From: Actinomycetota bacterium
GTDB taxonomy: Bacteria > Actinomycetota > Thermoleophilia > Solirubrobacterales > 70-9
Assembly (NCBI GenBank): GCA_005885405.1
Contig: VAYN01000018.1
Coordinates: forward strand, 87,596-151,595
Direction of reading: 5' to 3'
DNA: 64,000 bases
The first letter of the stretch is position 1. Every line of letters starts with the position of its first letter. The notes beneath the pieces were generated by a model. It saw only the letters and a program-made list of their open reading frames with translations, was not told the origin of the DNA and did not search any database. Below, piece by piece: positions 40,377 to 43,303 of this stretch. A program made the position numbers and the translations under genes.

Positions 40377-40874
40377 TTGGCTGCAGAGAAGCGGACCGGC
40401 TACCTCGGCCTCGGCTCCAACGTCGGCGACTCTGCCGGCCACCTGCGGGAGGCGGTCGAGCTGCTCGAAGCCGAGGGGATCGAGGTCGACGCCGTCTCCT
40501 CCATCTACGTCACTGAGCCGGTCGGCGAGATCCTCGAACAGCCCGACTTCCTCAACGCCGCCGTCCGCATCCACACCGAGCTCGAGCCCGAAGAGCTGCT
40601 TAGCGCCTGCAAGCGGGTTGAGGCCGAGCGCGGCCGCTCCTTCGAGGCGCCCCGCCACAGCCCCCGTCCGCTCGACGTCGACCTGCTCCTCCTCGACGAC
40701 CTTGAACTCAGCACCGATCGCCTCACCCTGCCGCATCGCGAGGTGAGGACCCGCCGCTTCGTCCTCGTCCCCCTGCTTGAGCTCGACCCGGAGCTGACGC
40801 TCCCCGACGGGACCCGCCTGGCTGAGGCTCTGGCGGCCCTCCCGGCGGGGCAGCGGGTAGACCGAAGACCGTAA
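40377..40874 (+). CDS. folK: HPPK (2-amino-4-hydroxy-6-hydroxymethyldihydropteridine diphosphokinase)
   Basis: YLGLGSNVGDSAGHLREAVELL; RPLDVDLLLLDDLELSTDRLTLPHREVRTRRFVLVPLLEL; TTG start. Confidence 0.95.
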   Translation: MAAEKRTGYLGLGSNVGDSAGHLREAVELLEAEGIEVDAVSSIYVTEPVGEILEQPDFLNAAVRIHTELEPEELLSACKRVEAERGRSFEAPRHSPRPLDVDLLLLDDLELSTDRLTLPHREVRTRRFVLVPLLELDPELTLPDGTRLAEALAALPAGQRVDRRP

Positions 40875-40896
40875 AGTCTTAAATACTGAGCTGTTC

Positions 40897-40926
40897 TTGA
40901 CGCAAACCCTGCCGGTGTTCTAAACC
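40897..40926 (+). promoter_or_regulatory. Candidate promoter for DUF4231-TIR operon
   Basis: TTGACG - 18 nt - TAAACC immediately after folK. Confidence 0.4.
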
Positions 40927-40936
40927 CAGGTGGCGT

Positions 40937-41416
40937 ATGGAGAGCTCCCTCAGCGAAGTGGTGGCCGAGCCCGAGGTGCGGGAGCCGTTGCCCGCGCGCC
41001 CGGCCTGGGAGCGACTCGAGGAACAGATTGACTGGTACGACCGGAAAAGCCAGTCCGACCAGCGCGTCTACAAGGCGATGAAGGTCTGCCAGATCGTCAC
41101 CGCGGCGGCGATGCCCTTCGCGGCCAGCATTTCAGCCCCGATCTGGGTTGCCGGTGGCGGTGGCGCCCTAATCGTCGTCATCGAGGGCATCCAGCAGCTG
41201 ATGCAGTACCAGCAGAACTGGATCACCTACCGAGCCACCTGTGAGCGGCTCAAGCACGAGAAGTTCCTCTACCTCTCCCACGCCGGCCCCTACGCCGCCG
41301 CGCTCGATCCCGATGTCCTCCTCGCCGAACGGGTCGAGAGCCTGGTCTCCCAGGAGCACGCAGCCTGGGCGGCCAACCGCGAGGAAGTCGGCAAGAAGGT
41401 GGGGGGTGAGGGATGA
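40937..41416 (+). CDS. DUF4231/SLATT-like two-TM protein
   Basis: AWERLEEQIDWYDRKSQSDQRVYKAMKVCQIVTAAAMPFAASI...WVAGGGGALIVVIEGIQQLMQYQQNWITYRATCERLKHEKFLYL. Confidence 0.8.
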   Translation: MESSLSEVVAEPEVREPLPARPAWERLEEQIDWYDRKSQSDQRVYKAMKVCQIVTAAAMPFAASISAPIWVAGGGGALIVVIEGIQQLMQYQQNWITYRATCERLKHEKFLYLSHAGPYAAALDPDVLLAERVESLVSQEHAAWAANREEVGKKVGGEG

Positions 41417-42180
41417 CCGTCGAGACCGAGACCGGCCCTGCTCCCAGCACGACCTCGCAGAAGGTCTTCATCTGTTATCGCCGCCAGGAGACCGCCCCTT
41501 ACGCCGGCCGTCTCTACGACGCGATGGTTGCCAAGTTCGGCGCCGAGAACGTCTTCATGGACCTCGACCTGGACCCCGGCGTGGACTTCGTCGACCGGAT
41601 CACGCGTGTGGTCTCGGGCTGCGTCGCGCTGATCGTCGTCATCGGCCCCCGTTGGGCCGAGCTCGAGAACGAGGACGGGACGCGCCGCATCGCCGATCCC
41701 GAAGACTTCGTCCGCCTCGAGGTCGAAACGGGCCTGAAGCGCAACGACGTGAAGCTGATCCCGGCGCTCGTCGGCGGTGCCCGGATGCCGCGGCGGGAGG
41801 ATCTGCCGCCGGAGCTGCAGGGGTTGGCGCGACGCAACGCGCTGGAACTAAGCGAGGGACGCTGGCGCTATGACGTCGGCCGTTTGGTCGACACCCTGGA
41901 TGAGCTACTGCCGGTAGTCGAGAGCAGCCACCGAGTAGGGCCACCGCAGCCTTCGCCCGCGGCCAGAGGATGGCTGCCGGCCTTCGAAGGAGCCACCGTA
42001 GCCGGGCTCGCCGCACTCCTCGGGCGTCTTCTCGCCGAATCGATCGGCGAATTGAAGAACGCCGAACCCAACGAACCGGATCCGGAAATGATCGAACACA
42101 TCTGGACCGAGCTGGCGCGCCGGACCGGCAGCGGGTCTTCGCCGCACCGCCGGGCAGGTGGATCGCGAAGGGCCTCCTGA
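41413..42180 (+). CDS. TIR-domain protein
   Basis: KVFICYRRQETAPYAGRLYDAMVAKFGAENVFMDLDLDPGVDFVDRI...ALIVVIGPRWAE...DFVRLEVETGLKRN; ATGA overlap with preceding gene. Confidence 0.88.
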   Translation: MTVETETGPAPSTTSQKVFICYRRQETAPYAGRLYDAMVAKFGAENVFMDLDLDPGVDFVDRITRVVSGCVALIVVIGPRWAELENEDGTRRIADPEDFVRLEVETGLKRNDVKLIPALVGGARMPRREDLPPELQGLARRNALELSEGRWRYDVGRLVDTLDELLPVVESSHRVGPPQPSPAARGWLPAFEGATVAGLAALLGRLLAESIGELKNAEPNEPDPEMIEHIWTELARRTGSGSSPHRRAGGSRRAS

Positions 42181-42551
42181 TCGGCGGCATCGCGGGGCTC
42201 GTCGGCGGCCTCATCTGGACCCTCCCCGTCTACTACCCCGATGCGAAGGCAGAATTCGACAAACGCGCCTCCATAGAACTCGCCTCCCTCGCTGTCTCCG
42301 GCGGCGTTCTCGGCGTGCTGATCGGGTCGATCTGGCGGCCGCCGCGGCGCTCGGCTGCGTTTTGGTCGGGGGCGGTCGCCGGCTTGGTTGTCGCCGCCAT
42401 CGTCTGGGCGGTCTCCTGGAAGACGAAAACGGCGGACCAGCGGGTTTGGCTCTCGGGCCTGGCGGCGGCCCTGATTACGGCCTCGGTGGTGGCGACGATG
42501 CTGGCGCGCGATCGCGCCGGCGCGGGAACCCGCGCAGCCGAACCGGGCTAG
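42177..42551 (+). CDS. Multi-TM segment: separate CTG-start gene or frameshifted C-terminus of the TIR protein
   Basis: IGGIAGLVGGLIWTLPVYYPDAKAEFDKRASIELASLAVSGGVLGVLIGSIWRPPRRSAAFWSGAVAGLVVAAIVWAVSW...; no ATG/GTG/TTG in frame except 41970, which gives an Arg-rich out-of-frame-like N-terminus. Confidence 0.55.
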   Translation: MIGGIAGLVGGLIWTLPVYYPDAKAEFDKRASIELASLAVSGGVLGVLIGSIWRPPRRSAAFWSGAVAGLVVAAIVWAVSWKTKTADQRVWLSGLAAALITASVVATMLARDRAGAGTRAAEPG

Positions 42552-43303
42552 GCGGCGGCCGGCTCGCCGCGGAGCGGCGCCATCCACTCGGGCGGAATTA
42601 TCGGTGGCATCTTGCCCGGGTAATTCGGGACAAACCGCCTCGCCAAGTCGCCGGCGGGGCGAGCCTCGATCAGCGGCCGCAGGTCGTCGAGGGTCATCGC
42701 CAGCCCGATGCTGGGTGCGATTTGGAAATCGGCGGCGTTCGGGCGCTCGCCGTTGACGACGCCGCTCTTGACGTAGGCGTCGACCTTGTCGAGCAGGGCC
42801 GGCAGCTTCTCCAGGGCGCGGCGGGCGTTCTCGTCGCTGGCTTCGTTGAAGCGGGCGGAGAGGGCGACGATCGGCGCCGCGGTCTTCACCGCCAGCCCGA
42901 TCGGCATCCCGATCCGGGCTCCCTCGGAGTAGCCGCGCAAGGGGGAGTGGTCCTTCTTCATTCCCCACCAGAGGATCTGGCGGATCGGGTGCTGCAGCTC
43001 CTCGTCGCCGAAGCGCTCGGCCTCTTCGACCGCGGCCCGCTGGTCGGGGTCAGCGGGGAGCAGCGGCGGCTCCGGGCGCAGGCGGTCGAGCTCGTGGGCG
43101 ATCGGCCGCGAGCCCTGGACCTTGTCCCCGTCAACCTTCAGCGCCGGCACCGTGACGCCGGGGAAACCGGCGGCGCGCAGGACTCCCTTGGAGATCACCG
43201 GCAGCAGGTCGGTGCGCTTGTAGTCGATGCCCTTGTGCTTGAGCATCAGCTCGACGGCGATGCTCGGGTGCGAGGCCGGAATCACGAATAGGCGGGCTTT
43301 CAT
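42548..43303 (-). CDS. Glutathione S-transferase N-terminal domain protein
   Basis: ARLFVIPASHPSIAVELMLKHKGIDYKRTDLLPVISKGVLRAAGFPGVTVPALKVDGDKVQGSRPIAHELD. Confidence 0.85.
   Translation of the reverse strand: MKARLFVIPASHPSIAVELMLKHKGIDYKRTDLLPVISKGVLRAAGFPGVTVPALKVDGDKVQGSRPIAHELDRLRPEPPLLPADPDQRAAVEEAERFGDEELQHPIRQILWWGMKKDHSPLRGYSEGARIGMPIGLAVKTAAPIVALSARFNEASDENARRALEKLPALLDKVDAYVKSGVVNGERPNAADFQIAPSIGLAMTLDDLRPLIEARPAGDLARRFVPNYPGKMPPIIPPEWMAPLRGEPAAA

Follow-up and report, generated by a model that had tools for sequence, protein, structure and literature searches.

The 64,000-nucleotide stretch of actinobacterial DNA analyzed here (the window) contains a small unit encoding SLATT and TIR proteins within a cluster of housekeeping genes, raising the question of whether this locus is an immune module and, if so, whether it is still intact. 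The original prediction was a compact defense unit composed of a TIR enzyme and a membrane effector, with three products. Our preferred reading, to which we assign a probability of about 0.6, is that a TIR-SLATT immune module of two genes was acquired horizontally at this locus and that the second of the two is broken in this genome. The predicted kind of unit, an acquired TIR-SLATT pair, gained support from its recurrence elsewhere and from its putative catalytic glutamate; its intactness and the count of three products did not.

Insertion site of the unit

The unit lies in an inserted stretch of 1,673 nt (positions 40875 to 42547) between folK (40377 to 40874) and a GST gene on the minus strand (42548 to 43303). 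The limits of the insert were drawn from the adjacency of folK and the GST gene in congeners. In seven of these, the two genes are direct neighbors that lie -26 to 77 nt apart, leaving the site empty, and the 11 remaining genomes in the genus all lack SLATT genes of this type. Insertion of the unit into a housekeeping cluster, as had been proposed, is thus borne out, and horizontal acquisition of the TIR-SLATT unit is supported. Insert and window have the same GC content (0.68), so base composition provides no foreign mark, and no convincing flanking repeats or target duplication were found around the insert. A promoter had also been proposed just after folK (TTGACG-N18-TAAACC). This suggestion is not supported: no sigma-70-like site was found in positions 40800 to 42700, and TAAACC shares just three of its six bases with TATAAT.

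The gap between folK and the GST gene is filled otherwise in three further congeners. In G130, it holds the end part of a gene for an anti-phage dCTP deaminase (L092, 782 to 1849, minus strand; PADLOC, 1.4e-111), with the contig ending within the gene; in G080, it holds a DUF3800 gene (L088, 1023 to 1763, minus strand; Pfam, 6e-14); and in G074, it spans about 1 kb in which no gene is clear. The corresponding gap in genus g5 contains ordinary genes, judged by eye to be radical SAM, DUF2855-like, kinase-like, and oxidoreductase-like, and these weaken the idea that the slot is a dedicated defense hotspot. The slot tolerates insertions, one of which is a defense gene. Because ordinary genes occupy it in genus g5, the location of the unit is weak evidence for a role in defense.

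The SLATT gene, the TIR gene, and the frame break

The first gene of the unit (40937 to 41416, plus strand) encodes a predicted membrane effector of 159 amino acids. In family scans, this protein scored well above the curated cutoffs of both NCBIfam SLATT_1 (9e-36; 122.7 bits versus 41) and Pfam DUF4231 (1.1e-23; 84 bits versus 24.7), in agreement with the DUF4231-like identity that it had been given. Its AlphaFold model (mean pLDDT, 89) is all-helical, with four helices, of which those at residues 22 to 64 and 69 to 89 span the hydrophobic stretch; a simple hydropathy scan gave a single peak, at residues 53 to 71. We found no relatives of solved structure by sequence or by fold, no match to PADLOC models, and, in the family scans, no separate nucleotide-sensing domain.

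The second gene, present like the SLATT gene in one copy in the genome, overlaps the SLATT stop by ATGA, as noted earlier. As now read, it encodes 255 amino acids (41413 to 42180, plus strand), comprising a TIR domain (residues ~17 to 150), a first membrane helix (residues ~186 to 214), and an out-of-frame tail. Its match to Pfam TIR_2 (1.4e-8; 35.7 bits versus a cutoff of 28) agrees with its prior identification as a TIR protein. The motifs quoted for it, VFICYRRQ and DFVRLEVETGL, are present, and the first glutamate of RLEVE, E103 (codon at 41719 to 41721, plus strand), is probably the catalytic one. In a sequence alignment with human SARM1 (E value, 5e-4), E103 is placed opposite the glutamate of DWVHKEI, which we take to be the catalytic residue E642. 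The equivalent glutamate is kept in all six relatives described below. A fold search with a TIR model from one relative returned SARM1 TIR domains as the best matches, with a TM-score of up to 0.86 on the target. The TIR protein is a putative NAD+-cleaving enzyme.

The hydrophobic segment downstream (42135 to 42551, plus strand) had been interpreted as a separate four-TM product. In six relatives (G011, G098, G090, G027, G150, and G022), the SLATT gene is followed by one uninterrupted open reading frame (ORF) of ~356 to 402 amino acids that encodes a TIR domain and about six hydrophobic helices, an architecture referred to here as TIR-6TM. In the structure model of one relative, six long helices come after the TIR fold, with moderate confidence in the membrane part, and Pfam searches recovered the TIR domain alone, with nothing above cutoff for the membrane part. 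The segment in the window has four hydrophobic peaks and is homologous to the C-terminal half of these proteins, corresponding to helices 3 to 6 in a shifted frame. Since the relatives have a single ORF and the segment in the window lacks a credible start codon, we read it as the end of the TIR protein. The three-gene reading is rejected on the basis of the six relatives.

The coding phase changes near positions 42100 to 42145 (plus strand). GC content by codon position follows the TIR frame to ~42,100 and another frame from ~42,130 to the end, and DNA alignment with G011, G098, and G090 revealed that ~44 nt, including helix 2, are absent from the window. With these ~44 nt gone, helix 2 is lost and the frame shifts. 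An assembly or binning artefact, with the real gene intact, could produce such a break, and the genome is a draft of 30 contigs that is 93% complete; a difference of ~44 nt, as opposed to a single-base error, and the intact neighboring genes make this explanation improbable. Alternatively, the copy in the window might still be functional, its halves being either produced independently (a one-helix TIR protein and a four-helix protein) or joined by recoding. The strong coding bias in both frames flanking the break, the intact TIR domain and SLATT, and a CTG that overlaps the TIR stop codon (CTGA) would fit a functional split. Arguing against it are the absence of ATG, GTG, and TTG from the new frame in positions 41970 to 42300, the lack of an evident slippery site, the missing helix 2, and the unbroken gene in 6/6 relatives, so that we give it very little weight.

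Our preferred reading is that a deletion split the TIR gene in the window; we favor this over an assembly fault, with a tolerated split less likely still. The break looks recent, since the TIR ORF and SLATT are still open and the downstream coding bias is still strong. With its TIR gene split near 42,100 to 42,145, the unit in the window is not the intact one that had been envisaged; its function has most likely been lost or strongly impaired, and the copy is probably decaying. A perfect 14-nt inverted repeat, with arms in the TIR domain (41484 to 41497) and the membrane tail (42406 to 42419), was also seen and is perhaps a chance occurrence in GC-rich DNA.

Recurrence of the TIR-SLATT pair

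Within the whole order, SLATT genes of this type were found in 9 of the 232 genomes searched, and a TIR gene lies directly downstream in 7 of those 9, from which we conclude that the pairing is not due to chance. In the two exceptions, G600 and G194, no TIR gene adjoins SLATT, and G194 carries a TIR gene on another contig. In G194, SLATT follows a long ORF resembling, by eye, a CHASE2-type membrane sensor (L081, 6446 to 9544, plus strand). Pairwise identities of SLATT and TIR proteins are moderately correlated (r = 0.68; 21 comparisons that are not independent), which fits joint inheritance of the two proteins.

Other phyla and viral contigs also contain the pair, as the original prediction required. 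In a sample of 397 genomes from the phylum, a TIR gene occurs within about 3 kb in five of eight SLATT genomes. Among other phyla and other actinobacteria, 10 of 16 full SLATT loci (L027 to L031 and L033 to L043) are close to a TIR gene, with three of the ten coming from mutually close relatives (Aquimarina). The neighbors of SLATT include Pfam ThsB_TIR proteins in L036, L039, and L040 and a directly adjoining TIR-STAND protein in L037. All three viral contigs with SLATT have an adjoining TIR-like gene, as judged by eye; in one of them (L147, 3574 to 4998, plus strand), the SLATT gene is 61% identical to that of the window and has short TIR-like genes on either side. A search of viral contigs for TIR-6TM gave two TIR matches only, both covering the TIR domain alone, and among the genomes and contigs compared, the TIR-6TM form was seen in this order only. 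A separate observation concerns G213, in which LSDAT_prok, a prokaryotic TRPM-type SLOG domain (3e-71), is fused to DUF4231 (3e-29) near two TIR genes (L133, 478 to 1779, plus strand); this fusion may tie related SLATTs directly to nucleotide sensing.

Instead of immunity, the pair could serve in housekeeping or in stress responses, for example in membrane-stress signaling via NAD metabolism. The neighborhoods of the relatives' pairs are varied and mostly metabolic, mostly without classical defense islands, and we found no phage assay on this subgroup in the literature, both of which would suit such a role. A rare and patchy distribution (the 9 of 232 genomes above), a clean insertion site, and the TIR-SLATT pairs seen in phage-like contigs point the other way, and we consider a housekeeping or stress function improbable. 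Just past SLATT in G011 are genes for a patatin-like phospholipase and a metallo-beta-lactamase-fold protein (L075, 10506 to 15176, plus strand).

Proposed mechanism and relation to known systems

The steps that we infer for an intact pair are NAD+ cleavage, a nucleotide signal, a response by SLATT as the effector, membrane damage, and phage defense. TIR-6TM would sit in the membrane and be triggered there, perhaps by a disturbance of the membrane or envelope during phage infection. By analogy with other TIR-based systems, the TIR domain would cleave NAD+ to an ADP-ribose-type product, to which the coexpressed SLATT would react such that the membrane is opened or disturbed and the infected cell halts before phage are produced. 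Because the SLATT protein in the window has no nucleotide-sensing domain, this model needs direct sensing or contact with TIR-6TM. A more specific version, in which the membrane TIR enzyme itself senses membrane events and passes a signal to a SLATT pore in the same membrane, dispensing with a cytosolic ThsA-type receptor, in an arrangement restricted to this order, is put forward tentatively, as a possibility that we regard as doubtful.

A different division of labor can be envisioned, in which TIR-6TM is both sensor and killer, acting through NAD depletion. SLATT would then be no signal-gated pore but a partner or regulator in the membrane, by which TIR-6TM is restrained or anchored. Such an arrangement would be in keeping with the overlapping genes, the membrane nature of both proteins, the lack of a recognizable nucleotide-binding domain in SLATT, and the closest similarity of the TIR domain being to SARM1, an NAD-depleting enzyme. 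The partners of SLATT differ widely, however, and include SLOG, reverse transcriptase, and nucleotidyltransferase proteins (PMC7159879, PMC12632851), a variety better suited to an effector than to a TIR-specific regulator. SLATT also adjoins soluble ThsB-type TIRs. We consider this alternative unlikely and favor SLATT as the effector.

The pairing itself has precedents. TIR-SLATT neighborhoods and SLATT as a predicted ADPr-regulated membrane effector have been published (PMC9503650), and SLATT has been predicted to be a pore-forming effector (PMC7159879). As in those neighborhoods, a TIR gene is conserved beside SLATT here. Firmicute phages (Streptococcus phage Javan281 and Staphylococcus phage SN10) also carry a TIR gene beside a two-helix SLATT gene, and these pairs are predicted to work alike, through an ADP-ribose-derived signal that acts on a membrane effector (PMC9503650). 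The comparable contigs in our set, L148 and L149, encode short TIR proteins, and L148 also has HTH and zincin-like genes in the vicinity. In contrast to the phage pairs, the TIR domain described here continues into about six membrane helices, and the unit is part of an actinobacterial chromosome.

Membrane-effector Thoeris of the TM-macro ThsA type (PMC11204291) shares with the present pair a TIR protein and an effector thought to disturb the membrane. The effector here is instead SLATT, without SIR2-SLOG or macro domains, and the TIR protein is itself predicted to be membrane bound. The neighbors of the TIR gene are folK, SLATT, and GST, and the scanned proteins gave no match to SIR2, SLOG, or macro, the domains expected in a ThsA; the TIR protein falls outside the ThsB family, with a weak and partial match to PADLOC ThsB (25.2 bits over 68 residues only) and a score of 23.4 bits against NCBIfam ThcB4 (cutoff, 220). 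In DRT10/UG17, where the SLATT gene is needed for defense, SLATT is likewise a proposed membrane effector (PMC12632851), but its partner is a reverse transcriptase with a noncoding RNA, whereas here it is a TIR protein. SARM1 and bacterial NADase TIRs have in common with this protein the TIR fold and the aligned catalytic glutamate; unlike SARM1, it has no ARM or SAM regulatory domains and carries a C-terminal membrane domain instead.

While the combination of TIR and SLATT had already been predicted by others, the TIR-6TM architecture paired with SLATT looks new. TIR-SLATT pairs are predicted in the literature, where we found no experimental tests of them. One genus displays a clean course of acquisition and decay, with an empty site, an insertion, and a broken gene. 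It is the intact relatives, rather than the copy in the window, that merit attention. They are minimal two-gene candidates in which the enzyme and the effector would both be membrane proteins, and because both reside in one minimal pair, the proposed link between the TIR product and SLATT is directly testable.
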